Origin: Apostichopus japonicus | Lineage: Eukaryota > Echinodermata > Holothuroidea > Aspidochirotida > Stichopodidae | DNA: 64,000 bases | Assembly: GCF_037975245.1 (NCBI RefSeq) | Contig: NC_092574.1 | Coordinates: 8,777,713-8,841,712, forward strand | Direction: 5' to 3' | Part shown: piece after piece, positions 4,075 to 64,000 of the stretch | Layout: every line of letters starts with the position of its first letter | Numbering within the stretch: position 1 is the stretch's first letter | Notes under the pieces: generated by a model | Told to the model about the DNA's origin: nothing | The model's database searches: none | Seen by the model: only the letters and a program-made list of their open reading frames with translations | Program-made: the position numbers and the translations under genes

Positions 4075-4605
4075 TTAAAGAGAACTTGTTGATGTTTCTG
4101 GTGTATCGTGTACTTCACTCAAATGAACTTCCAGAGCAAACTCCGGCGGATAGACATGCTGGTTGCGAGGAAGGTGAGGATTGTCGATTTCGTCCCTCGT
4201 AAGCCTCAACCTGTTGACGAATCAATCAAATACGGAACTGTAAACTGCAGATATATGAGCCACAGCTTGAATAATTAATAAACACTGATATGTATTAAGC
4301 CATTTTTAAACATCAACTTAAAGAAAAAAAAACAAATTTGTAAATATACTATCATTTGTCATGTTGAAAATTAAACCTTGATTGTATACACAACCAGGAT
4401 AAAGCTCAAATAATCAATAAGACACTGATATATATAGAGAGAGAGAGAGAGAGAGATAGAGAGAGAAAGAGAGATATATATCTATATAAACACAATGAAA
4501 TTGTTGGAAAATCCAGAGCTGCAAAACTTCCAGCCTCCACAGGGGTTCAAACTTGGGCCTCCCGCTTTATATGCAGACACCCGTATAAATATATTTACAT
4601 ATATA

Positions 4606-4640
<35 letters not shown>

Positions 4641-7600
4641 GTGTGTTTGTGTATATATTTATATATATAGATATATATAAAAACATTCATACATACAGCC
4701 ACTTAAGCCTTTAATTCACTAGTTAATAAATTATTGGATAATGTATGTAACATTGATCTACCATAATCAGGAGTGGTTTCACAGAAACTACCTAATCAGA
4801 CTAAGTAAGAAAAGAAAATCCACATCTTTTTCATTTTTTTTAAATTTTATTGATTGATGGAATTGACTCACCGGTCTCCTTCAAAGAATGATGAATGTAG
4901 CCAAAAGAAGAAAGCGCATTTGTCGTAACTCTTTGGCACTTTCTGAAAACAAGGAAAATGGAAGGGAACCATCTCAGAGAAAAATTATACAGAAAATACT
5001 CACTCCATCATTAGTATAAATACCTGTTCATGTAGAAGAATGTGCTAAGCAATGCACATGGAAGCAACTCGTATTTGTCATTTTATGAAAGTCCCTCAAG
5101 TGTCGATAAGAAGTACAGGTTTGTTTGTTGAACACAACTGCAGTGAGTACATGGCTGGTACTAGGTACAACCTTGAAATGTATGTTCACTGATACACACT
5201 GACATACATACACACTGACATACATACACCTTTTCACTGCTTGACATTTTTGCTACACTCATGTGAAGCAAAAATGAAGAGTGGTCTATTTAGGTGTCTT
5301 CAGGTATTCAGACATTTGCAAACAGTCATTGTGGTTCCATTCAATTAATTAATTAATTAATCAATTAATTAAGAAATGTTTGATATTCTTAAATGGGGCC
5401 ATAATTCAATAATAAAAGTTACAAGAGACTGAGCAGATTTCTCTGGCAGTTTCAGGAAAATCATTTCCACGATATTCTTCAGCCTTTGATCAAAAATTAT
5501 AAAAATCATATTCCGAATGTTACCGGGACAAAACTTGTGAAAGGCTGTCTTTCTAGGCAATTTGGTACTCTTTTTGCTTCCAGTTTAAAATCCCTTTTAA
5601 TTGCTCTTTGCTCTAAGAAATTTGGAAATGAAATCAACTCATCTCCACTTTGAAAGCTTTGTAGTATTTACTGTTCAGCAGTGTTTGATGCCTTATGATA
5701 TATAAGTTTAGCAGGAGTGTGAGTGCCTCTCTTACCTTTGAGTTTGATTCAAACTTGATTTTGATATTTCCTGATAGTTGTGGACAGTTCAATACCGTAC
5801 ACGATAAGATATCCGTTCCATGGTCGTAGATGGCCTGGGGAACAAAAAGTAACAACATTCAAATATTTTGATATCTTCAGGACCTTTGTGAATACAAGAC
5901 TGGCTTCAAAAAGGAATCATTCTAGCATGAGGTTTAACTAAAACTTGATGGAATAAAACGTCAATATCTCCACTGGGATATCTTCAACCATTCCCCATAA
6001 TTGGGTAATTAAATAGCTGCAAGGCAAACAGGAGGGCGCTACCTATCCCGTTCCTCCTCATGATTTTGGAAACGCTTTGGAAACAAAAGTTACCATTTTG
6101 GCCAAAATTTGAATAAACCATAAGGTTATAGCCTTGAAAAATAACCAAATTTGGCCAAAAAATTGAACTTTCAAATTTCATTTCAGATGCTCATTTTGAG
6201 ATTATTATTGGCTGACAGGCAAACAGGAGGGCGTCACCGATCCTATGCATGATTTTGTATTCAATTAAAAAGTTACAATTTTGGCCAAAATTTGAAAAAA
6301 TCATAAGGTTAATAGTCTTGCAAAATAACCAAATTTGGCCAAAAAATGAAACTTTCAAACTTTATTTCAGATGCTCATTTTGAGATTATGATTTGCGGAC
6401 AGGCAAACAGGAGGGTGCCACTGATCCTAAGCATGATTTTGGATTCAATTAAAAAGTTATAATTTTGGCCAAAATTTTGAATAAATCATACGGCTGTTGC
6501 CTTGCAAAATAACCAAATTTGGCCAAAAAATTAAACTTTCATATTTCATTTCAGATGCTCATTTTGAGATAGTTATTGGCTGACAGGCAAACAGGAGGGT
6601 GCCACTGATCCCATGCATGATTTTGGATTCAATCAAAAAGTTACAATTTTGGCCAAAATTTGAAAAAATCATAAGGCTTTGCAAAATAACCAAATTTGGC
6701 CAAAAAATTAAACTTTCAAATTTCATTTCAGATGCTCATTTTGGGATAATTATTGGCTGACAGGCAAACAGGATGGCGCCACCTATCCCACACATGGGTT
6801 TGGAAACAATCAAAAAGTTACAAATTTGGCCAAAATTTGAAAAAGGCCTTGCAAAATAACCAAATTGGCAAAAAAATGTAAATTTTCAAATTTCAGTTGA
6901 GATGCTCATCTTGATATTATTTTCCTTGCTAGCAGGCAGACAGATTCAGAGCAGTTAATCGAGATAGGGCTCTGTTAGGACTGATATGATATAGCGCCAT
7001 CTGTAGATATGCTGAAGATCCCCAATAGGATTATCTACTCTAAACTGAATGGATCATTTACTGAAGGATCAATTACCGTCATCCTTACCTTACAGTTAAC
7101 ATTGCCATCAAATCTACCCTGATGCACCTTCTGTTTATCGCAGAACACTTTGAAACTGAGGTCTCGGCCATCCCCTTTACCGATGCCTACAAGTCAGGAA
7201 ACAACACTACAGGTTAAAAGTCATATTTAAACAAAACAGAAGGAAAATTTTAACTCCTTAAAAGTAACCACATTTAAAATTGATTTCCCTCAAGATGTGT
7301 GAGCAAGGAAAGGAAAACAAAACATTTTAAGAAAAGTAAAAAGACAGATAAATACAGTAGATTTGCAACATCACATGAGGACACCAACAGAATTATTACA
7401 CCTTTCAATGCACCAACACATGAACACCACCTCATGAGGTCACAAACTGAACTATTACACCTTTCAGTGCACCAACACATGTACAATTCCCCATGAGAAC
7501 ACCAATTAAACTATTATACCTTTCAATGCACCAACACATGTACAACACCCTATGAGGTCACCAACTGAACTATTACACCTTTCAATGCACCAACACATGT

Positions 7601-10600
7601 ACAATTCCCCATGAGAACACCAACTGAACTATTACACCTTTCAATACATCAACACATGTACAATTCCCCATGAGAACACCAATTAAACTATTATACCTTT
7701 CAATGCACCAACACATGTACAGCACCCCATGAGGTCACCAACAGAACAATTACACCTTTCAATACACCAACACATGTACAACACCTCATGAGAACACCAA
7801 TTGAACTATTATAACTTTCAATGCACCAACACATGTACAACACCTCATGAGAACACCAGCAAAACAATGACACATTTCAATGCACAACCACATGTACAAA
7901 ACCCCATGAGAACACCAACTGAACTATTATACCTTTCAAAGCACCAACACATGTCCAACACCCCATGAGAACTCCAACTGAGCTATTACACCTTTTAATG
8001 CACCAACACATGTCCAAAACCCTATGAGGTCACCAACAGAACAATTACACCTTTCAATACACCAACACATGTACAACACCCCATGAGGTCACCAACTGAA
8101 CTATTACACCTTTCAATGCACCAACACATGCACAACACCCCATGAGGTCACCAACTGAACTATTACACCTTTCAATGCACCAACACATGCACAACACCCC
8201 ATGAGGTCACCAACTGAACTATTACACCTTCCAATGCACCAACACATGTACAAAACCCCATGAGGTGACCAACAGAACAATTACACCTTTCAATGCACCA
8301 ATACATGTACAACACCCCATGAGAACACCGACTGAACTATTACACCTTTCAATACACCAACACATGTACAACACCCCATGAGAACACCAATTGAACTATT
8401 ATACCTTTCAATGCACCAACACATGTACAACACCTCATGAGAACACCAGCAAAACAATGACACATTTCAATGCACAACCACATTTACAAACCCCATGAGA
8501 ACACCAACTGAACTATTATACCTTTCAATGCACCAACACATGTCCAACACCCCATGAGAACTCCAACTGAGCTATTACACCTTTCAATGCACCAACACAT
8601 GTCCAACACCCCATGAGAACTCCAACTGAGCTATTACACCTTCAATACACCAACACATGTACAACACCCATGAGAACACCAACTGAACTATTACACCTTC
8701 AATGCACCAACACATGTCCAACACCCCATGAGGTCACCGACTAAACTATTATACCTTTCAATGCACCAACACATGTACAGCACCCTATGAGGTCACCAAC
8801 AGAACAATTACACCTTTCAATGCACCAACACATGTACAAAACCCCATGAGAACACCAACTGAACTATTACACCTTTCAATGCACCAACACATGTACAACA
8901 CCCCATAAGTACACCAACTGAACTATTACACCTTTCAATACACCAACACATATCCAACCCCCTATGAGAACTCCAACTGAGCTATTACACCTATCAATGC
9001 ACCAACACATGTCCAACACCCCATGAGAACACCAACTGAACTATTTACACCTATCAATGTACCAACACATGTACAACACCCCATGATAACACCAACTCAT
9101 GAGTACTGCTAAACCTACCAGAACATTATCATGTGTGCACCAAACCATTATGGTACCAGTTTTGAGCTTTGACGGAACCGTATCGCTCCAGAATTTGCTA
9201 GAAAGATAAATAAGGGTCTCTCATTTTTAAACTTCTATAACCATGGTGGTGCCATGGACAAAGGCTCGTCTCTCTATGAGAGAGCTTGATGTCTTCATTA
9301 AATATCTGGGAACAATTAGGAGGGTCGCAGAGCAGTGACAGAAAGAAAAACCTACTTGAAAACTTTTAGAAAGTTTTTTTTACACTCCAGTAATGTTGGT
9401 AGCTAGCATACTGATGACTTTTCTTAACCACTTCTTTATTAAAAACTCCGAGAAAGAACTACTAAGTTACCTGACAACTTCTCCAGTTTTATACTTCTAA
9501 GTTTCAGTTTTCTCGGAGGTGGAATTTTCCCATCATATTCGTGTTTCAGCTTCTCGTAGTAATTGACGTACCGTCCCTTTGAAGATGAAATGCGAGAGAT
9601 TGAAAACTTTGACAGAGTAAAACAGCAGCTTCATATTAGAGACAATTAATATCGAGTCCAAAAATCCTTTCCTATTTCATCTTTTTCGGCTGCAACATTA
9701 ATTCCCTGATTCTAAGGATTCTCACTCAGTCAATATCTAACAGGAGTTTTATTCTTTCCCTTTTCAACGAATTGCGTGAGTTTATAAACCCATACTCTGT
9801 CATTAAAGGGTGTGAACATTCGTGCAAAAAGAAACGTCTAATGCCGGTAATTTGACCTAGTTTCCAATGAGGTGTAACAGAAGTGTTAAACACCACCATC
9901 GATCCCAGAAATTACACACACAGCTTGCTACCGTCGGTAATTAGACACTAGTGTACAGTCAGAACATACAGCTGCGGTCAATACCCACAGCACAGTATAC
10001 AAACGATACAGCGATGGACATCTCAGGTCCAGCTAAAGAAAACAATTAAGGTATCACGTTTCATTACTGTCTGCATTTTGTAGCGACACAAACAAAACGT
10101 CACTTGCAAGCAACAGAAAGTTATCTTTTTCAGATGGCCGCACACAGTTTGGGGCGAGTCTTCAATGCCTTTAGAAAGAGCTAAATGGAACTGAGGGTGA
10201 GATTCCCTGGTAACACTGTCCCTTTTGCCATGGCAACCAAACAAGGTTATTGTGATAGGGTTTGATAGTTTGGTCAGAGCAGAGGACTTGTAACCTTGAC
10301 AACCACTGGGCCAAATCCACTTCTAGCCAAAAGTTTGTTCATCTTTTCGAAAAGGTTCTTTTGTAAATTCCCGGTCAGCAATCCATTTTTGTTTTAGATA
10401 CTATCTTGTGTTTTATCAACTTCCTAAGAAGCTTTCCTAAGTAGCTCCCTTCTCTCTTTTAAAGCTTCCAAATTTTTGTACTGCTCATCTTCTATCTCAT
10501 TTGTTACTTTAAATTGCTCGATTGTATGTTTTTCCCAATCAAAAAGAAAAAGTTCCAATTAACTTGTAGGAGCCGTGCCTTGCAGGGCTTGTACAGGACT

Positions 10601-13600: not shown

Positions 13601-16600
13601 CAAAAACTGCGGTATAGGCTCCAGTTTGCGTATGCTACAGTGTGTTAGAGTAATAGTTTTTGTGCCCGAGGTAGAAAAGAAATCACGGATATTCTGCGAA
13701 TTCGCTCATGCCTGTTGTCTAGATAGACAGTTGATGAATTATGAGTCTTTCATAACTTCTTCAGGATATCGAATCTGGGAAACTATTTGTAAGGAGATAT
13801 GTGGGGTTAACTATTAATTGTCCAGCCAATGAAAGTCAACTTTTTACAGTGAGAAGAAAAGTAACTTTATTTATACTAACTGCATAAGTTGCAGACCCTG
13901 TAATGTCCAGCATGTTTACTGTTCAGGAAACGGGACACGTCTGCGATGGAATTACGATAAAACGACTGGCTGCCAGATGATGGGAAAGAGGACGCTATGA
14001 CTCTATCTGGGGAGACGACAACAAGTGTAATCATATGAATACATGTATAATATTAAGTGGACAGTAATCGAGTGTAAGACATTGTGCATACTTTACTGCT
14101 GGTCGATGGGACAGAGGACGCAACTAAAAAGACAACGAGATGTGTAAACACCGGCCCATGTGGCTTAAAACACACAGTGAATCATGCAGGGGAAATACAG
14201 ACTTCACTGGCTTGTCACATTCTTACTACTAGTTGATGTTACAGGGGATGCTATGACTCTATCTGGGGGGATGGCAGAAAGCCTAAACACATGACTGCAT
14301 GGTTTGAAACGTACAGTAAATCATGCATTGGAAATACTGACTTCACTGGCTTGTCACATTCTTACAACTAGCTGATGTTACAGGGGACGCTATGACTCTC
14401 ACTGGGGGGGGGGTGGTAGAGAGCGTAAACACATGACCGCACGGTTTGAAATGTACAGTAAATCAAGCATAGGAAGAACAAAGACTTTACTACTGGGGAC
14501 AGAGGACAGAATGACTGTATATATGGCAAAGACAATATGAGGTGTACAAAGTGCCGTGTGGAAGGTTGTCTAATATGGGACATTGTAAGACATCTCTGGT
14601 TACATTCTTATTACTGGATGATGTGACAAAGGACACAATGACAACAAACAAGGCAACAAACAGGAAGTTTACACACATCATCACATAGTGTGGAGTGGGT
14701 ATCAATCATATACAGGACTTCAGTATACAGGATATTATTACTGCAGGTTCTTTTACAATATCATGTAAACAAACCAGTGATTATTAGCACAGGGGCCCTC
14801 TAAAATCATCATACTGATTCTAAATGATATATTTCTCATCAAAAGGTTACTCATCAGTTTGTTATATAGTTAGTTAGAACTTGATTACGACGGATAAAAT
14901 AAGACTTAGTTTTAACGGAATTTGAATCTGTCGCATGAAATTGATTCTGTTTACTAAATCAGAACAAATATTAAACAACATTATCATGCAAAAGAATAAC
15001 ATCTTCTTTCCAAAAACAAATCAGCAGAGGCTCATTAAATATGCTGCATGGAAGTTCCTCGTTATTTGATGAAGTCATTAACTATGGAAACTGTCAGAAT
15101 TACCTGTAATGTAGGTCAAATCGAGATCGAACCCGTCACTTCTGTAACGTCTCTTGTTTTCCGATACCTGATGAGATGAGGTGATATGGAAGCATGTGAT
15201 ACTATCAACAGATTAAAGGGTGTGAAGACTCGCGCAAAAGAAACGTCTAATGCCAGTAATTTGACCTAGTTTCCAATGAGGTGTAACAGAAGTGTTAAAC
15301 ACCACCATCGATCCCAGAAAATACACACACAGCTTGCTACCGTCGGTACTTAGACACTAGTGTACAGTCAGTTCATACAGCTGCGGCCAATACCCACAGC
15401 ACGGTATACAAACGGTACAGCGATGGACATCTCAGGTCCAGCTAAAGATAACAATAAAGGTATCACGTTTCATTACTGTCTGCATTCTGTAGCGACACAA
15501 ACAAAACAACATTTGCAAGCAACAGAAAGTTAACTTTTTCAGATGGCCGCATGCGATTTGAGGGGAGTCTTCAATGCCTTTAACTTTATAACTTTTAGGT
15601 TACTTTCACATTTCACATCGAGATCGAACCCGTCACTTCTGTAACGTCTCTTGTTTTCCGATACCTGATGAGATGAGGTGATATGGAAGCATGTGATACT
15701 ATCAACAGATTAAAGGGTGTGAAGACTCGCGCAAAAGAAACGTCTAATGCCGGTAATTTGACCTAGTTTCCAATGAGGTGTAACAGAAGTGTTAAACACC
15801 ACCATCGATCCCAGAAAATACACACACAGCTTGCTACCGTCGGTACTTAGACACTAGTGTACAGTCAGTTCATACAGCTGCGGCCAATACCCACAGCACG
15901 GTATACAAACGGTACAGCGATGGACATCTCAGGTCCAGCTAAAGATAACAATAAAGGTATCACGTTTCATTACTGTCTGCATTCTGTAGCGACACAAACA
16001 AAACAACATTTGCAAGCAACAGAAAGTTAACTTTTTCAGATGGCCGCATGCGATTTGAGGGGAGTCTTCAATGCCTTTAACTTTATAACTTTTAGGTTAC
16101 TTTCACATTTTTCTCTCTTCTCTTTCCTTCCCTTCATCAAATATCTGTCTTTAATGATAGCAATTCTTCAAATGACATTTGCGCAAAGGGCTTCATGTTG
16201 AATATTACAGTTCTACTTGGATTATGAGCTGAAATGATCGGAATAGGTTCTGCCTGCGAGATCTAAACTTGCAGGAAACTGGAGAAAAGGAAATTTAATT
16301 CTTTGCATTCCTTTTACACTCTCTCTTGAAGGGACATGCAGTCTGCTATTGCACAATAGTCCTAGTATATTGTTAGGGGTTGTAAAAATAAACACAAGTG
16401 TACTTGTTATTGCTGGATTAGCCTAATTTAACAGGAAGGACGTAGACATGTGTGTATGAAAATAACAAGTATAACTGTATCAATAAACATTATCCTTTTA
16501 TGCTGATTAAGGTTTAGGGATGTTCTCAGTGTGTTACAAAGTGTAATTCTTTTCAGGTCAAGGAATGGGTAACCATAATACAAGAGTTCTAACTAACTCC

Positions 16601-19600
16601 TTCTAACATCTGACGACAGAATTGTTCGGTTGTGAGAGTCCAACCTGGACAATTGTATCTAAAAGACTTTCAAGGGACTGCAAATAGAAAGATGCCATCA
16701 ATGGCAAGAAAATTAAATAGTCCAGTTATCACTAATTACCATCCTTCTAGATGCTTTAGTTAAATGTCTTCTTTCACTGATGAGCCGAGCCAGCATAACC
16801 ACCCGTATAAACCGGCAGGCTAGAATCAATCTATGGAGGGAACAGATCAAACATTAACAGTTGCCAGTTAAACCGGCAGGCTAAAATCAATCTATGGAGG
16901 GAACAGATCAAACATTAACAGTTGCCACCTGTATAAACCGGCAGGCTAGAATAAATCTATGGAGGGAACAGATGAAACATTATAAGTTGCCACCTATCGA
17001 ATCAACCAGTTTATTCCTACAAAACAGTTCACAATTTGTTAATTGATAAAAAAAGAAAAAACTATTTACCAGAAGAGTACATCCACATTTCATAATCATA
17101 CCAACTTCAGCAGACAACCATCTTTTCAAGAATTATTCCATATTTTTATTTTTATCAATATTTTTGGGGGGACTAAATTTAACCTTTGATTAGAAATGAG
17201 TCAGGTAAAGACATGAGAAAGCAAACATTCTGTCTTTTAGCAAGGCACTGATGGTGAACCGTGAAGACATATTCTGTGGTGTTCTTACAAAGACTATTGT
17301 TAACAGACTTGTAAATAGGAGTACAACAGCATGAGTACCAATACTCTACTGTCTATTCGTACTAGTACAAATTACAAGCCTCTAAAACACAAGTACATGT
17401 AATTAATCTCTGCACTAGCATCCACAGGTTCCCCAAAATTCCCCAACTAGGAGTACTTAGATAAATCCTTCATCAGGGGAGTACAGGCAACTACGCTAGA
17501 ATACGAGTACACACTGTTAACAAATTATGAATATTAACGATAAAGCTCTCCCTCATCACGGCGACTGTTTCAAAAGTCAGAGCGCGTATCAACTGAGACC
17601 CACTTTATCTTTCACTTTCATAAATATCGATTACACTCACTTTCCATAGTCTGAGTTAGCGCCGGTAAAGTCTGCAATGATGTAAGTGAACGTTACGACT
17701 CCCGTGATTATAACAATGCACAGGTCCATTATATCCGGAAAAGGAGTGCGGAAGAACATACGTCTGAAAATGAGACAGAGGTATGAAAAAGACGTGATTG
17801 GAGTTGGTTGTACAAATAGTATTTTTTTATAACTTATATGAATTTAAAAGAGAATATGTAGTATTTCATTCCTGCCTTGGGCTATATCCCATCACCAAAC
17901 CAACCATATCTCCCCCCCCCCCCTTGATTTTTTCCGATCAAGAAATTTAACAACTTTGACAATTTTTTTCATTTCCTTTCAAATGATTGTTTACAGTGTA
18001 TACCAAAAGGAATTTTCTGGGGATATTACAATGAGAACAAAAACTTCATTGCCATGTAATAATTTCAATGAGCTGAAACCTGTATGTACTAATGTTGTCC
18101 TTATTTGTCCATTTCTGGTACATGCAAAATGGATCGATACAAAAATTGCCTACTACCAAGTCTTGTGGGTTAACTACATATTCGTCTCAAACTGTGACAT
18201 TCTTACAATTGTTTATTTAAAGGAATGCTGTATTGGCCCCAGATATACCACATACTCAAATATGGTCACATTTGGTCAACATTCTTAAAACTGTTTTTAT
18301 TAACACCTTGGAAGAAATGTACCTCACTGGGACATTCAGTCATCTTGTGTGTTCATTTAGAATGTCTGGGAACAATTTGGATAACAAAGACACCCAGGAA
18401 AGTACTTTTGAAAACTTTTAGCAATTATAGCGTGCTATAATTTGGGGCCTATACTGTATATACTACCTTTAATTCATTGTGAGACCTGCTAGTATTAATC
18501 CTGTGATAGTGAGGTTCATTAACTTGTTCTTATTATGAAGGCAAAGGTTACTATGCCTACTCGAAAGGAACTAAACAATGTACTCGTTTTTATCTGACAC
18601 AGCAGCGCTGCAAGGTTGCTAATTACTAAACAATGAGACCAATTGTTCCTTGCATTCCTACAGGTTTGTGTTGATCTCCTCCAACGAACACTCACCTTTG
18701 ATACTAAATGGCTTTATACACCTATAGTGTGTGACAAATATTAACTGTGACAGACCCCTCATTAAACAAAGTACTTTGAACCTGCTGTAAGTATAGATCT
18801 ATACACACACACACCTAGGGTAATTTGTGTAAGTCACAATATAGATAAGAAATAACACCAAATTCTCGGCTCTACACAAAACAGTTGCAGTTCAGTGTCC
18901 TTTCTTTAATCACATTAATTCCTTGCTGTACCTAACATAGCCATGTAACAGCTTGAGATTAAGGGGGAAAAAATTTGCTTTATTGTAAATGAGCATACCA
19001 TATATGAAAAGTGACCATTATTTAAATAATTTTGACAGAAACTTTGCAGTAAAACAAAATCTACTGATATTGAAACAACCACTGAAATTAATCATAGTAC
19101 AATATCCCAACACCCCCACCCCCAGAGCTAAATAATCAAATACTGACCTGAAGAGACACAAACCGTACCATCATTAGTGGTCAAGAACAACTTGCCCAAA
19201 GAGCTAAGGAAACATTGTTATTCCACTTGGACATTATGAGTCATTATCACAAACGTAATATTTTCTTTTCACGCAAAAAGCTTACAGCTTGGTCAAGTTT
19301 AAAGAAGACATCGTTGGGTCACGTACGCCTTGATAAATAAATAAATTTTTCTTGATCTATTACAATGTTTATTTCTGTAATTGAGATGGGTTTTGCAGAT
19401 GCCGGATCTAAAATATAGCACTTCTTAATAACATAATGACCTAAGTGATGACATTAGTTTCAGTGTTAACACACTGTTAACATTCAAACTTGAAAATACA
19501 TTCAGAAAGCAAACCAATAACAAGAGAAAGTAAAAGGTTTCATAACGGAGGGACTTTATAACATCAAAGATTTGATTTTTAAACTAGGATCCATCTCCCA

Positions 19601-26663: not shown

Positions 26664-31027
<4,364 letters not shown>

Positions 31028-41016: not shown

Positions 41017-42003
41017 TCAACTCTTACGGTCAAAACATCCATTGAATAATCTCTTAGCTTTGTCCCGAAAGTTTCTATTGCAAATGGAATAAACCACCGT
41101 ATTCCACCAAGAATTACAGACGACAGCTAAAGAACAGAACGCGTGGAATTCGGGCGGAATTTCAATACCAAACAACTCCAGGACGATACTGGTCGAATAT
41201 GGAATCCAGGAGCCTAGATAAGCACCCGTAACAAGGAGTGTCGTTCGAATCGCTTTAGAATCCGACCCACTTATTTTCACTTTTATCCCGGTGCCAACTT
41301 CTGTAACGTGATAGTCGGTGGTCGCAGCGGTCGTCGAATTACCCGCCATGGACAAAGAGTGGTTCGCGATTCTTTTGGAATGTTTGCCCGATATTTGCCA
41401 GATTTTAATATATATGAGAACGATGGCGAAACACTGCGAATACAATACAAAGGACAACAAGATGGCGTAGAATCCTTCTAGCTCAATCAATTTCATGAAA
41501 CATTTCCGGTAGATCCAGGAATAGCAGGTGTTATCCAAGAAGCTCTCGTCCGAACCGTACAAGAATGCTGAAAGAAACCAAGCCGAAAGTGCCACACCGC
41601 ACACGATAGAAACTTTCGTTTTAGTTACAAGTCGGACATGTACAAACGGTTTCGAAATGGCGTAAAATCTATCTGCATTTAACAGTAGCAGGACACTGCC
41701 TCCGCCACCCGCTGAAAAGAACATTGAGATGGCAAACAGGTTACAGAGTCCATCCCCTAATATCCAGCGATCGACCCAAGCAGAGGGTGCGGTTACCACC
41801 AGGGTGATCCCTACCAGAAAGTCACACATTGACAAAACTGTGACTAGGACCTTCGCCGATTCTGGGAAAGCCGTTAGTCTAGGAATCACTAAAATGTTAA
41901 TCGCGTTTCCACAAATAGCTAATGTTCCAATGACGAAATAACAAGAGGCGTGCAACCAACTTGGAAAATGGTTCACTGTGTAGAGAGAGGTGTCATTCTC
42001 CAT
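41017..42003 (-). CDS. Orphan rhodopsin-family (class A) GPCR, single exon
   Basis: 328 residues with seven hydrophobic segments. Class A landmarks: N33 (GN, TM1), D61 (TM2), C87 before TM3 with C160 in loop 2, D111-R112-F113 (DRY variant), W266 and P268 in TM6 (SWIP), and N301-TVV-Y305 (NPxxY variant with Thr for Pro). Exactly 25 residues separate C87 and R112, as in typical class A receptors. Residue 94, where amine receptors carry Asp, is Met, so a monoamine ligand is unlikely. An N-terminal glycosylation site is seen (NDT, residues 3-5). The third loop is moderate, about 50 residues, and Thr/Ser-rich. Intronless and isolated, as in many expanded marine-invertebrate receptor families. Ligand and subfamily unknown. 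Confidence 0.93.
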   Translation of the reverse strand: MENDTSLYTVNHFPSWLHASCYFVIGTLAICGNAINILVIPRLTAFPESAKVLVTVLSMCDFLVGITLVVTAPSAWVDRWILGDGLCNLFAISMFFSAGGGGSVLLLLNADRFYAISKPFVHVRLVTKTKVSIVCGVALSAWFLSAFLYGSDESFLDNTCYSWIYRKCFMKLIELEGFYAILLSFVLYSQCFAIVLIYIKIWQISGKHSKRIANHSLSMAGNSTTAATTDYHVTEVGTGIKVKISGSDSKAIRTTLLVTGAYLGSWIPYSTSIVLELFGIEIPPEFHAFCSLAVVCNSWWNTVVYSICNRNFRDKAKRLFNGCFDRKS

Positions 42004-43981
42004 TTCTCAAGGTTTACTCTTTCTTCCTTCTTTAGAAGTATTCACAGATAACTTTTCTTAATCATTTCATCGAAGGCCAGTTGCCCAAAATGCAGAGCTC
42101 ATGAAAATGAATGTATCCGGATAAAATGCAACTTGACATTGCAAAAAATAAATGAATAAATGAAAAACTAAACGAATGAACACTTTCTACCGCAATTTTT
42201 GAACTTTAACGATCTTTATACAATTAACTCGCAAGAAAAGAACAAGAATCAAAAGAATAGGTTGTTTATGAGAGGAACGTGACAGCATTGGCGGTTAATT
42301 AAATAGCACACATTGCTCAAATTTGTTTTTCTAACACACAGCGTACATAAACGTTGTCAACAGAATTTTTATCAACAACCATCTTTTCCAATTATTACAC
42401 CGAGAAAGGTTTAAATGAAATTTATTTTAAATTATGAATAATTTCTCAAGCGGTAATTATCCTTATGTAACTATATAGGAGCATATATATCACGTTCTTC
42501 CGTCTTACTTTGTGCCCCGATATTTTCGTCCCCGTCCATGGATGGAATTTTCTTTTCCCTTTTCTCTTTTTTATTATTATTAACGTTTAATTTAACAATG
42601 AACGTTGAATCTCCAAGAGTAATTAACTTTCTCAAAGAACTCACCGGCGCCATTCCATAACAAAAACAAATGTCTCCATTTTAAAATAAGGTCGCACTCA
42701 ATAAGTGAGGGATAGGTGGACTCCAAAATTAGAATAAAAAAATAGACGTTTCTTGTCGATCTTACAATATATTAATCTATACAATTACTTTTCGCTTGAT
42801 TTTCACTCCTGAAGGGTTTTGTATTATAAAAAGGCAATGAAAGCATTGTCACCATACGCTCGGTCCAGTTAAATCAAAACCATCTATACCTTAGCGATTT
42901 TCGCTGACGTACTATGGAATGAATACATCCAGAAGACAAAATTAACCAGCTCACATGCCACGAATGACGATTTTAGGTGGACGGGAGGGATAAATTAACA
43001 ATTGAACAATTTAAGTATTTGAAAGGTATGTCTAGAATTTTTTCTTCGCCTCGCTAATTGATGATATGCTGCACCATCTCAAAAGATGGAAAGTTTTCGC
43101 TTTATCTTCCGTTATCGTTAGTGTGAATTTTATCCGTTCGCCATTCCATCGCTCTATCCATGGTATATATATATATATATATAAATATATATAATCCGCC
43201 AGTGAAAGAACTGCAATGCGGTTTGTGAATAAAAATAACAATACTAATAAAGGGTATACAGTATTATTCAAAACGGATACTTCGCACCTCTGCTGGTCTT
43301 TTAAAAATGACGCATTCCAACAGTTGCTATTGTTATTAGACAAAATAAACATATGAATGACAACTGTTTTTTCTCTAAACAAGTGAAGTTACCCTCCCGT
43401 CTTCAGAAAGCGATTTCGTCGAGTAGGCCTATACTAGAAGATGTAAAAAGAACGGCGTGCACGCTGGCGTTATTATGATCACAGACAAACCACAATAAAT
43501 ACCTTCCACACAAATCCATGCACGATCCATTTCTCAACGAGCGAAAAAAGGAGGATTTTCTATGGTTTATTATAATTAATTACGTCGCTGACTTTTTCTT
43601 CATGGTTGCCTTTCAAGGCAAGTTATTGGTATGGTACGACTAATGATCAACAGGGCATGGATTGGAACTCATAAAAAAAAGCTTCTGTCGCGACGCGCTC
43701 TCGTTCATGAGAGAGGAATTTTGACGATGCACGGACTTTATCTGTGTATACTGAGAGGGCTTCGTGGAAAGGTTTCCCTGATATGGATAATTGCATGTAC
43801 TTAAAGCTTAAAGGATCATTCAAATAAAGAGGCCGGAAAGGCTGGGGGCGCGTCAAGGAGAGCCTCCGGGTGCGGGTCGATTAGGGGTGGGGGGCTGAGG
43901 AAATTGGAGAGGCCCGGGCAAATATGGAATAAGGCATATCGTGTTTTTTTTTAAATATAGGCCTACTATAATAGATAATAA

Positions 43982-50089: not shown

Positions 50090-50860
50090 TTCTGGAAAAA
50101 ATTCTGGTACAATTATAGAATACAGGGCCATTCATTAACTCTTCCCAGCATCCGGATGCGCGGATGCGCGGTGTGTCTGTACATGTCCGTACACGTATGA
50201 CGCCCTCTAGAATTCCATCACGTATTTCATTTTGACTCCGCATCCGCGCATCCGCGCATCCACCCCGGGAGTACTAGGAATGGACTTAAATAATTTTCGA
50301 AAGTTTCCCCATATACCATCACGTATTTCATTTTGACTCGCTCTAATTTCCATCACGTATTTCATTTTGACTCCGCATCCGCGCATCCACCCCGGGAGTA
50401 CTAGGAATGGACTTAAATAATTTTCGAAAGTTTCCCCATATACCATCACGTATTTCATTTTGACTCCCTCTAATTTCCATCACGTATTTCATTTTGACTC
50501 CGCATCCGCGCATCCACCCCGGGAGTACTAGTTTCGACATATACCATCACGTATTTCCAATACTGAAAGTCCCGTATGTACGAAGATATTCCACATCAAT
50601 AGTGTGTCGTTCTTTAAAGGCATCCGTACATGTGTGACGCCCTCTAAAATTCCACCACAGAAGTACTAGCAAAGGACTTAGGAAATTTTTGACTCCGCAT
50701 CCACGCATCCGCGCATCCACTCAAAAAGAAAGAACTGGGACTTTGACATTTTTTACTCACATACGTACTGGGGTGAGACTGAGCATCCGCGCATCCGGAT
50801 GCTCAGATAGTATCATCGAGTGGCCCTGTATTCTATAATTACTCCAAAATTCTATCAGAA
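50090..50860. mobile_element. Foldback-type element with long inverted ends and internal tandem repeats
   Basis: The left arm aattatagaatacagggcca..agcatccggatgcgcggatg (50111-50170) is repeated inverted at the right (gagcatccgcgcatccggat..tggccctgtattctataatt, up to 50840). The imperfect match extends further out, giving arms over 60 bases. Between them are about three ~130-bp direct repeats with ccatcacgtatttcattttg, catccgcgcatccac and gggagtactagg. No coding capacity. The ends are not precisely defined. Confidence 0.8.
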
Positions 50861-59200: not shown

Positions 59201-62200
59201 TTATTTATAAGTCCTCTAGCCCCCACGGTCCCTAAGCTACGTTATTACGTATTTACAGTACCCCTCCCCAACCCGCCCCCATCTCATGAAATTGAGTTTA
59301 GCAATTAGATCATTGTAAAATGATATTTTCATTGTCAACATTTATTAGAGCTGTATAAATGTTTATTTTACTGGATAATACAGCGCACAGTTAACTAGTT
59401 GTGTTATTGGCCAGTACTGTAAGCAGTACTCTAACATGGAATAGAATGAGACATCTGTGCATGAATCTCGTCACATTAATACTACCAGCTACTTTTTGGT
59501 CTCAATCACTGCATGGATAATATATTAATGTTGTCTGATATCAGTAATAACGCTAAAGCTGGATTAATATTGACTTGAAAAGTTCTGTCATTCTGACGAG
59601 GCTGTTATTCTCACATTAGTGAATTATTCCTCAGTGTAACTAAGAGATCTTCTTGATTACGGCCATTATCATAATAATATGTGCTATTTATAAAGCGCTT
59701 TCCAATAAAATCTCAAAGTGCTGTACAGAAATAAATACCTAAAAGATATCAAACAAAACAAAAAATTGCACCAGGTAACTAAAAATAGCAATACAAAGAA
59801 TAAAAAGGAATAATTAAGACATAAGAGCAAATATTTTTAGATTACATTACAAGTATAAAGTGTTCATATTAAACATTTAAAAATATGTGTTTTCAAATCC
59901 CTTTTAATTTTTTTTTAATAATTCAAATTATATTGTTCCTTGTTAACCTCTAGAGAGATTGTTGCAGGGTGGTTCGTGCTCTGTTGGATCATTAATTAGC
60001 ACACATGTATGTAAAGGGTCGACTGTATTAAACAGATTTTGCTCTCAGATCTATATTTTAGTGGTCTTGGAATATTGTCCCTCACTTTCCAGAAGTTCTT
60101 CAAAAATTTGAAAAAAAGCATCATCCTACTAAAAAAAGGAAAGAAAGAGAGAAATAAAGGAAGGAAATGAAAGGCTTAACTCTACATGTTTAGCACTTTG
60201 TAAATTTTCACTATATATATTAAGTTATCTCCAAGTACGCTGTGCTGCAACCCCGCCACCTCCCACCCCCCCCCCCAGGCACCACGGCCACATCCCTCTC
60301 CGTTCAAACGTCATGTCTCTTATTGCCATGTTTGTTCTTAGATGTTGAATACATACGGACTTTCATCCATCCATACGCATGTTCTGTAAATTCTCATTAT
60401 AATGCCAAGATTCCATACTGACAATGCCTAATCATACTAGTGCACTAACTTTCATACCAGATGAAATTGACAAATATCAGCTTCATGGTCACAACTCATA
60501 AAGCCATTCTGGACCGCATCCCATTGTAAGTTTGTAACGTCTAAAATTTTAATATGTACGCTGCTTTTATTGTTATTATCACTATTTTAAGATATGTCGC
60601 TTCTACCGTTGCCAGAACATGCTGATATATATATATGCGGGTTTATTAATGAAAGAATGAATGCCTGGCTGAACTCCCCACTCACGATAGTTAGGTTTAT
60701 TCCGGGTGGCATTTACAAGTCGCTGACATTTACCGTTGAAAGATGGATCATAATATGCAGCGACAATCGGATCGCACCTTCATAGACAGCAGTTTGAGAA
60801 GTATTTACATAATTATGTTGCTTTTTAACTTTGTAGTGTTTGCAGTATGTTTGGATTTCAGTAAGAGCATACAAATGTTGATTTTTTGGCTGTTGTTGTT
60901 TTGTTTTTTTGCCTTGTCAGAATGTATAATAAAATTTAATAAGTTTTGTTTTAGTTGTGTGCAATGAACTTTTACAGTTACTACTTTATCATATATTTTT
61001 ACAGACACCAGATCCTCATGTAGCCCTTTACAGTACATTCTAAAGACTAAAGAGTCCAAATTTATAGGTCTGTGCGACCACAACTCCTGGTTGGCAGTTG
61101 GGACATTGATTAATAGGGAAGGTTTTCTGTTTTTATAGGCTAAATCGTGATAATGAGTGATCAAATTTGAAAATGAAAGTGTCGCCTTAAAATTTTTGTC
61201 TGAAGCAAACGTTTCAGCGATATAGAGGGTACGAATTCAAAATGTAAATTATAAGGTATTGAGACATAAAAGAAACTTTTTGATCTACAGTATATTAATA
61301 TTTTATTCATAAATTTTCAGTCGTATTCGATACTAGAACTGCATACTGTTAGTTTGTGACATTGCAGTATGTCAATATTAAGTCAACTGTTGATCAAGTA
61401 TAGTGTACATCATTTATGAAGAAAAGTCAACATTTGGAAAGTTTCTGGCAGTTGTAGGCATTTTGTAAAGATCTGTGGTTAATATGATCATAAAAATATG
61501 ATGCGCCTCAGTTATGGTTAATACGATCGTAAGAAAATAAAATGTGCCTCATTTACAAATTTATTACAAGAGATCTACAGTAAGGTAGGTATTACTTCCT
61601 TGTGAACATTCACTAAGTTTGTGAAAAAAATAAAAATCAAGATTGAGAGAAAAAGAGAGAAGAGGAGGAATGGGAGAGGAGGGCGAATTTAATATGTTAT
61701 TTGCTAGACTTTTCATAATCTTAATTTTTAGTGTTACTCACAAGAGATGTAAAACTTGGCAATTCTCTTCAAGGACCTTCATTTTCAATCTTCAGATGAT
61801 GCAGCTTCTCAAGATCAGGTTCCAAGCCCAGTGGAAGAGGAAAGTCGCAGGATCTTACTGAACCAACCCCAGTCGGTGAAGTACTGCAGCAACGAGGTCG
61901 AGTGAGTGCTTATTAATGATCAAATTTGTGCAATTAACACAAAGGATACAGAAAGTATGAGTAACACCGGTGTAAAAGATGATGGCTATATCTTGTTTCA
62001 TACCTCTGGACGTACAATCAGCGTCCATAGCCTAGTGGTTAGGGTGTCCGCATATAAAGCGGGAGGCCCATGTTTGAAGCCCGGTGGAGGCTGGAAGTGT
62101 TTTCACTGTTCTGGATTTTCCAACTCACTACAATTTGAATTAAATATATATGTATTTGTATAGTTCTATATATATATATATATATATATAATTGTAACTA

Positions 62201-63300
62201 TATAACTATAAAAAACCGCTTATTGGATGTACAGTACCTTATATGGGCCATGGCTTTTACATTATAAACTGGTGTCATACTAGTTATTATGTAAGAGTTT
62301 GAATAACATGTAAATATACAGTGCTCTTCATACCTACCGTACCAAGTTTTCATAACTTGCAAATGGATTAACTTTGTGAAACCACCATCTCTTTTCCAGA
62401 ATTTCCACTCTTAATAAAAGACAAGCAAATCTAGCAAATTTGATATGCCCTCTTGTATACTATATAGCATTTATTTTACATATAATACTGGTCTCACCTG
62501 TTTCATCCAGACATATATGCACTCCGATGTTACCACATTAGCTCTGTGCTTTTATTTAGCAAAACAGCAAGTATCTTTCAAGATTTGTGGTTTACTTATA
62601 ATCTAAAAACTGAAGTTCATTGAAGTCCCACTTAAACAGAATAACAGCCAGAAAGAAAGACATACAGTTATGTACCAGCATTCAACCAGATTATCACTAG
62701 GAATAATTTCTTAAATTAGGAATCTGTGAACAAATTTAGAATGTAATAAAGTATGTGATTTTTTTCCGCAGTTTACTTTTAGTAAATGTCTCATGTATTT
62801 ATGTACAGTGAGTTTAAATCAGGGGTGGGCAACTTTTTTGAATGAAAGGGCCAGATATAAGGAGTGAAAATTGACTGGGCCGCACCTAACCAACGACCTG
62901 ATGTTGATTTCAAACCTATGATTCCGAGGAATTTCAAGCAATAGGTGTGTGTACTTAATCTGTTGATAATTAATGGGGATAATAAGCCTACCTGACAGCA
63001 TCATTAGTGCCGATAAATTCTAAGCAGCTAGATCGTTTTTGTGATGATGTAGTAGAGTGTTTTTTTTCCTTTTTCTTGAGACATCTCACAGGCGGCAAAA
63101 AAAAATCACTGAAGGGCGCATGTGGCCAGCTGGCCGTAGGTTACCCACCCCAGGTTTAAATCCTTTTCATTTTTTTTCTTTCCATTTTCCCTCAAATCAG
63201 CACTGGCAAGTACACATTCATCACATTCCTGCCAAAATTTTTATTCGAGCAATTCCGAAGATATGCAAATATCTTCTTCCTCTTCATCGCGCTTCTCCAG
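53261..63300 (+). CDS. ATP8A1: Class-1 P4-ATPase phospholipid flippase (ATP8A-like), 5' part; continues past the window
   Basis: Moves aminophospholipids to the cytosolic leaflet with a CDC50-type partner (family knowledge). Visible exons: 53261-53340 (ATG at 53316, preceded in frame by TGA), 56210-56254 (45 nt), 61796-61901 and 63201-63300. Phases 1, 1, 2 and 0 agree at every junction. The third exon encodes [18 protein letters not shown] and the fourth [20 protein letters not shown] followed by [13 protein letters not shown]. This is the conserved N-terminal stretch and first membrane segment of ATP8A proteins. The first two exons, beginning MPDFLRLQ, are variable N-terminus and rest on splice signals and phase only. 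Catalytic parts lie beyond the window. ATP8A1 versus ATP8A2 cannot be separated here. Confidence 0.85.
53390..53810. repeat. Degenerate minisatellite in ATP8A-like intron 1
   Basis: Loose repeats of about 60-70 bases on the pattern gatggtgattgtgtgagagg followed by tgctatggggttga, starting some 50 bases after the donor at 53340. Confidence 0.6.
53844..53869. repeat. (TA)n microsatellite
   Basis: A short TA run in intron 1 of the ATP8A-like gene. Confidence 0.85.
55026..55360. mobile_element. MITE with TIRs containing TGACGTCA
   Basis: The left end is TATAGAGGTGTTGCAGTGAC followed by gtcat; the right end, inverted, is TATAGAGGTCTTGCACATGA followed by cgtcat. About 335 bp, non-coding. TATA may be either target duplication or part of the repeat. 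Lies in intron 1 of the ATP8A-like gene. Confidence 0.7.
57029..57408. mobile_element. Possible hAT-like remnant
   Basis: The left edge CAGGGGCGCAACTATG resembles hAT termini, and the right edge ..ggtggctgggcctg is a weak inverted match. No target duplication is visible. Contains a local duplication (atatagcgctatgttgcatc at about 57192 and 57262). Confidence 0.3.
59655..59790. repeat. Dispersed-repeat-like segment with 'tttataaagcgcttt' motif
   Basis: atttataaagcgctttccaa and ctcaaagtgctgtacag form a loosely complementary pair of a kind common in non-LTR or SINE tails of marine invertebrates. A related phrase with (AAT)n lies at 56812-56870. Assignment is from general familiarity only. Confidence 0.35.
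62021..62165 (+). mobile_element. tRNA-derived SINE, fuller copy
   Basis: A-box-like tagcctagtggttagggtg (62028-62046) and B-box-like tgtttgaagcccgg (about 62072-62085), spaced as in a tRNA. A body follows (tggaggctggaagtgttttc..ctggattttccaac) and then a TATA-rich tail. The anticodon arm is degraded, so not a functional tRNA. Same family as the minus-strand copy at 4482-4586. Intronic in the ATP8A-like gene. Confidence 0.75.
62820..63153. mobile_element. Non-autonomous hAT-type element (CAGGGGTGGGCAAC family)
   Basis: The left end is CAGGGGTGGGCAAC; the right end is GTTACCCACCCCAG. Flanked by direct 8-bp repeats GTTTAAAT at 62812-62819 and 63154-63161. 334 bp, containing gggccagatataaggagtga and gcgcatgtggccagctggcc. 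The CAGGGGTGGGCAAC terminus is a classic hAT type. It ends only about 40 bases before the acceptor of the ATP8A-like exon at 63201. Confidence 0.92.
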
Positions 63301-64000
63301 GTAAGAAGTATTCAATTTCTATTCATAAGTACTGAAATGATCCGTTTAGGTTTTCTTCCGCCAAGGTCTATCTTTCTCTTCCCAATCCACTTATAAATAC
63401 ATATGGGTACCGATGGTTTTACTTACTCTGTTCCTTATCTGTGGAACCAGCTATCAGACCATGTTAGAACATTAATTTTATTGGTACTTTTCAAGAAAAA
63501 ATGTCACCCATTGAAGAGAGAAAAAATCTAAAAACTTGATCCACCCTCAACCCCTGTCAACATTTGAATTTGGTTAGTCATGTTGCAAATTTAATTTTAC
63601 ATATTCATAGTTACATAATTGACAAATGATTTAAGAAGAAGAAAAGAAACCCACATGTAATGAGATTTTGAACAAATTTTTTAGATACTGGATATTGCAC
63701 AATATTCCATTATAAACCATCAAAATTTTGTTGACATTTGTTACACATCTAATGACAGGACTTCTTTTAATATTAAATCTTGTCAATACCATATATCTTT
63801 GTATATATACCTCTAATGCAGACATTTTCAGTCCTAACTGAGAACCACTTACCCCTGCTCCTGTCGTCCAAACATTAAAGATGCAAGCAAAGCATCCTGT
63901 TTTGACAAATTGTTTTCAGAATCATTTGAGAAAAAAAAGATTTCTTTAAATTGATATTCTGTATACTGTAAGTGGATGAGTGGGAGCAAGTATGATGTCA
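63301..64000 (+). other. Start of the next ATP8A-like intron
   Basis: Begins with donor gtaaga. No further exon is recognisable to the window end; the next conserved block of the family (QIPDVSPTGRYTT-like) is not found here. Confidence 0.65.

Follow-up and report, generated by a model that had tools for sequence, protein, structure and literature searches.

Copied acceptors at three neighbouring exons of a voltage-sensing phosphatase gene in Apostichopus japonicus

A stretch of 64,000 nucleotides from the holothurian Apostichopus japonicus (assembly GCF_037975245.1, contig NC_092574.1, positions 8,777,713 to 8,841,712; hereafter the window, with positions counted from its first letter) carries a voltage-sensing phosphatase (TPTE/VSP) gene on the minus strand. 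The locus raises the question of why three neighbouring exons of one gene should each be preceded by copies of their own acceptor and exon start, and whether this reflects a property of acceptors, a function of the copies or a chance meeting of unrelated events. A preliminary description made from the letters alone had reported such copies for the S4, linker and first phosphatase exons, and the analysis given here bore this out at 13881-16995 (minus strand). We consider it probable that the three cases are neutral, separate duplications, and that their meeting at acceptors within a single gene is a somewhat unlikely coincidence and not a general acceptor property.

Comparison of the exon edges with the sequence upstream gave scores of 99, 120 and 50 for the three exon starts, while the maximum in 480 shuffled comparisons was 32. 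Neither the other 11 VSP exon 5' edges tested, which scored 29 at most, nor the 14 VSP exon 3' edges tested, which scored 22 at most, had such a copy. This scoring, like the counts of random points and the placement of all five whole arrays described below, used preliminary exon edges, several of which were a few bases off. In each exon the copied part is limited to ~30-50 bases at the start and leaves out the real donor, and the arrangement thus differs from tandem exon duplication and from mutually exclusive exons.

The three exons were placed by reading frame and splice sites within the chain that matches TPTE2 (9c49). Upstream of the S4 exon (16740-16830, minus strand), self-comparison and alignment resolved 16799-16997 (minus strand) into three tandem units, as the preliminary description had it, containing the S4 acceptor and about 30 exon bases, although with spacings of 61 and 65 bp and not the 62-65 bp reported. 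The acceptors lie at 16830 (real), 16891 and 16956 (copied), and the last 15 intron bases are identical in all three. Pairwise, the units share 57/66, 53/66 and 55/63 identical columns (~13-20% diverged), and GGTGG, found by eye, bounds the unit both at its exonic end and at its end in the intron upstream. For the linker exon (15104-15167, minus strand), the reported 497-bp tandem duplication was recovered at 15116-16109 (minus strand), with copies at 15116-15612 and 15613-16109 that hold 52 linker-exon bases, the acceptor (15167 real, 15664 copied) and a 371-bp dispersed repeat that had been overlooked. The copies differ at two positions (2/497, 0.4%), 15119 and 15255, the former of which sits at the duplication junction and is possibly no substitution; by eye, the junction also holds an insert of 5-7 bases similar to the adjoining sequence.

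At the first phosphatase exon (126 nt, 13881-14006, minus strand), the array previously given as having a unit of ~135 bp does exist, but self-comparison and alignment showed it to consist of about six degenerate units of about 126-139 bp, at offsets of about 126-142 bp (13970-14660, minus strand), built on the acceptor and the first 37 exon bases. The real acceptor is at 14006 and the copied ones are at 14123, 14262, 14401 and 14514; a further copy near 14640 lacks the AG, and inspection by eye suggested a possible seventh unit reaching to ~14760. Identity is about 69-82% (~18-31% diverged), and a DNA search of the genome (671.6 Mb, 35 contigs) with 13885-14700, by a method that skips very common words, found its own locus only. 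Since unit lengths, divergence and breakpoints all differ, the three duplications are separate events of different age, as had been claimed. The breakpoints lie ~27-52 bases inside the exon and ~30-445 bases upstream, and the polypyrimidine tract is internal to each unit, which contradicts the earlier suggestion of replication slippage seeded at such tracts.

The dispersed repeat makes up 371 of the 497 bp of the linker duplication. It lies 45 bases from the linker acceptor (15213-15583, no strand assigned) and was carried along in the duplication, its second copy therein being at 15710-16080. The repeat ends in TTAA on both sides and has imperfect terminal inverted repeats, with 18 matches over the outermost 25 bases; being short, with TTAA ends, inverted termini and many copies, it has the features of a TTAA-target miniature inverted-repeat transposable element. 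Elsewhere in the genome 40 places were scored (of 3956 first-look candidates), 39 of them at 93-95% identity and one at 85%. TTAA was present at both ends of the copy at 15213-15583 and at 7/7 loci read (two of which, L002 and L003, have common flanks), while a further copy in the window, at 9802-10173, has TTAG rather than TTAA at one end.

The gene itself was recognized from a 248-residue peptide joined from sensor and phosphatase exons, which matched TPTE2 (9c49) over its full length (E 1.3e-71); a joined peptide of the same gene, also of sensor and phosphatase exons, matched Ci-VSP (3awf) at E 6.5e-48. The 248-residue query was approximate, two residues at exon junctions being wrong, and the corrected exons still join open. 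Joined at GT-AG splice sites, ten exons that begin with S1-S2 and reach into the C2 region give 328 residues in a single open frame, and the gene combines a voltage sensor with a PTEN-like phosphatase. The motif HCKGGKGRTG, which we take to be the PTEN-family catalytic loop, is intact and spans exons P3 and P4. When 162 residues of the peptide were scanned against Pfam, CopD was the sole match, below threshold (E 0.025). PTEN_C2 matched the window weakly at 4114-4281 (E 0.26, 19 bits against a cut-off of 27.1, one stop reported); the profile found eight places at E up to 1, the three above the cut-off all lying outside the VSP gene. The N-terminal exon (~22.4 kb), the 5' edge of which is possibly no acceptor although it is counted among the 14 exon starts, and the C2 exons (the last at ~4.1 kb) were placed by eye; one expected C2-domain exon was not located between 9471 and 5836. 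Two further arrays of the gene, 6085-6844 (184-bp x 4) and 7366-9097 (59-bp x 29), hold no placed exon. Both minisatellites sit between two C2 exons, where the unlocated exon is expected.

Whether acceptors are favoured was assessed both from points and from events. A point was taken as copied when its upstream copy scored 40 or more. Among random intron points of the VSP gene 286/1500 were copied, or 223/1340 (17%) without the three arrays, and with the minisatellites counted in this way the 3/14 copied exon starts did not stand out (P 0.42-0.52). At other loci (16 of 20 stretches of 10 kb) 80/960 points were copied (P 0.11 against 3/14), and at 23-63 kb of the window 25/600 (P 0.019 against 3/14). 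The other-loci points, like the comparison of other arrays below, left out L010, L011, L018 and L025 (52-100% array), while L013 and L015 (39-47% array) were kept among the points. Tandem arrays are common in this genome: 18 of the 20 stretches (L010-L029; round positions on five contigs) had at least one array of period at least 13, 3/20 were wholly tandem array, and the mean cover by such arrays was 24%. When whole arrays of the VSP gene were thrown at random, at least three of the five fell over an acceptor in 49% of cases, by a method that uses array rather than unit length.

A number of results, however, weigh against a neutral coincidence. The preliminary description had named a genome-wide finding of intron points copied as often as acceptors as what would go against it, and while within the VSP gene 223/1340 against 3/14 (P 0.42) points that way, only 26/1741 intron points were copied outside the five arrays, and in a regular point sample 334 of the 360 copied points lay in the 59-bp and 184-bp minisatellites; the P values of the point counts are moreover loose, since points are not independent. 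Acceptors were copied in 3/14 cases and donors in 0/13 (P 0.12; 14 donor edges scored). In proteasome genes, 0/18 approximate exon starts were copied at score 40 (P 0.07 against VSP), the edges being profile-match ends from 18 of 34 matches, a small sample from compact genes; the best edge score there was 33, at one edge, just over the shuffled maximum. The 18 exon ends of these genes were likewise without a copy at score 40. When one unit per array was placed randomly, using corrected exon edges, at least three of five fell over an acceptor with P 0.0075, at least three over an acceptor and none over a donor with P 0.0011, and the units of just the three exon-start arrays all over an acceptor with P 0.0011; the whole-array throw limited to the lengths of these three arrays gave P 0.037. 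Finally, over copies c2-c6 of the phosphatase array the exon-like columns were better conserved than the intron-like ones (0.71 vs 0.59, P 0.054).

As the event model is fairer than points for single duplications, there is an acceptor excess within the VSP gene, whose five larger arrays include three that extend across an acceptor and none that extends across a donor. This could be envisaged as the outcome of a bias in which duplications arise, or are retained, with greater frequency at acceptors than at other places, owing to a property of acceptors that is distinct from slippage at the tract. We regard such a bias as unlikely. The breakpoints lie outside the tracts, the excess comes from a single gene, and its weight is reduced because gene and pattern were chosen after looking. 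In 20 other arrays (units of at least 40 bp; window and fetched stretches), compared with random intervals of equal length, acceptor-like sequence lay at a mean percentile of 0.46 (P 0.69). The view that three such duplications are hard to dismiss as an accident thus holds within the gene and not as a general acceptor bias, which was not found in the 20 other arrays; as neither these nor the proteasome edges show an acceptor preference, coincidence is more likely than a bias, though less firmly so than the point count by itself would indicate. The duplications could also, as had been suggested, have been selected as decoy acceptors, which would lower or regulate the output of full-length protein. 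Indeed, the S4 and linker copies equal their real sites in score (12.2 and 10.4), and read-through from any of the seven copied acceptors leads to a premature stop. The copies of the oldest, phosphatase array, in contrast, score 7.8, 10.0, 2.5 and 4.1, with one lacking the AG, against 16.0 for its real site, an order that is expected from age and that neutrality predicts, and we therefore hold selected decoys to be very improbable. These scores come from a matrix built on ten acceptors of the VSP gene, the real sites included, and c4 is marked down by it for a long run of C. False duplication in the assembly is hardly credible: while the linker copies are 99.6% identical, position 15255 is A in the proximal and G in the distal copy, with G also in 7/8 other copies of the repeat that were read (6/7 loci and the window copy, at 9839), and the S4 and phosphatase arrays are too diverged for such an error.

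A further alternative is that the exon-start copies of the phosphatase array serve as functional cassette micro-exons, by which the protein would gain 8-12 residues at the passage from linker to phosphatase. Each copy has an acceptor, with a donor at its border with the following unit, and c2, c3, c4 and c5 hold potential stop-free, in-frame segments of 27, 36, 36 and 24 nt that end at GTAAAG or GTAAGA; the better conservation of exon-like columns noted above is also in its favour. However, the donors score only 4.1, 5.6, 2.8 and 2.6, compared with 6.1-10.4 for 11 real donors (the training set of the matrix, without C2c), and the copied acceptors are below the real one. Furthermore, in the recent pair c3/c4 the exon-like part (30/34) is no better kept than the upstream part (45/51), and of its five differences, read by eye, four change a residue and one is silent. 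Of simulated random duplications over this acceptor, 10.7% produced a cassette of this kind (donor score at least 4, a value reached by c2 and c3 only). Functional micro-exons are thus improbable, and it is, if anything, a shade less probable still that segments of 24-36 nt, which successive duplications across the acceptor would have created, vary sensor-enzyme coupling near the first phosphatase hairpin, whose location we have assumed from PTEN.

Neutral duplication therefore remains the explanation that we prefer, and we infer the following course for it. Errors of break repair or template switching, suggested by the GGTGG flanks of the S4 unit and by the insert at the linker junction, would have given rise to three tandem duplications in the introns of an array-rich genome. 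Each would have spanned an acceptor and been tolerated, since the exon-proximal copy, which adjoins the rest of the exon, could still be spliced normally.

Candidate micro-exons were also sought in the other two arrays and rejected. S4 copy 3 has a donor at 28 nt (score 3.2) that would disrupt the frame and another at 18 nt (3.1) that would keep it but is weak; the 48-nt in-frame piece of the linker copy has no donor above 2, and an in-frame donor at +72 scores 3.2.

Acceptor-crossing duplication has a precedent in the potato RdRp gene PGSC0003DMG402000361, for which a published study (PMC4974935) describes a tandem duplication across an acceptor, a new intron established by RNA-seq and phylogeny, and a cryptic GTAAG that became the donor of that intron. 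There as here, the duplicated segment crosses the intron-exon boundary and takes in acceptor, polypyrimidine tract and exon start, and VSP copies c3 and c4 have GTAAG at the corresponding place. At the level of DNA the VSP copies are the same kind of event; in contrast to the potato case, three loci of one gene are affected, one with about six copies. A review (PMC3443670) counts tandem genomic duplication among the ways in which introns have been shown to be gained. The VSP arrays resemble the model set out there in that tandem duplication makes extra splice sites, and differ in that the model duplicates an exonic AGGT segment while the VSP unit spans a real acceptor. They are also like intronic minisatellites and other tandem arrays in that their units, some tens to hundreds of bases long, follow one another head to tail, but unlike other intronic arrays they take in the beginning of an exon. 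Among the literature matches listed none dealt with duplicated acceptors in a VSP gene, from which we do not claim their absence from print.

The locus offers a worked case of how acceptors can be copied at several places within one gene of a repeat-prone genome while its reading frame stays open, and such copies are raw material for new introns or micro-exons. Should the copies be used in RNA, a new intron or exon would be seen at the moment of its origin, in a gene where voltage coupling is set by the linker. An acceptor excess across the genome would amount to a new mutational bias.

A number of minor observations were made alongside. Arrays with a 127-bp unit in 2.6-2.8 copies occur in the window (50198-50531), in L015 (9600-9938) and in L017 (6493-6839), and are perhaps one dispersed tandem-repeat family, matched by unit length alone. 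At 27768-28576 (plus strand) the window has exon-like stretches that we take to resemble a fatty-acid-hydroxylase-type gene; one of these stretches is closely preceded by an uninterrupted (AT)52 repeat (28141-28244). A stop-free stretch of ~330 residues at 41020-42006 (minus strand) presumably resembles a rhodopsin-type G-protein-coupled receptor, and the stretch at 63160-63393 (plus strand), in our view, the start of a P4-type ATPase. A tRNA match at 62021-62092 (35 bits, cut-off 29) has surroundings that resemble ~4440-4680 in translation, and the two together are perhaps a tRNA-derived short interspersed element.

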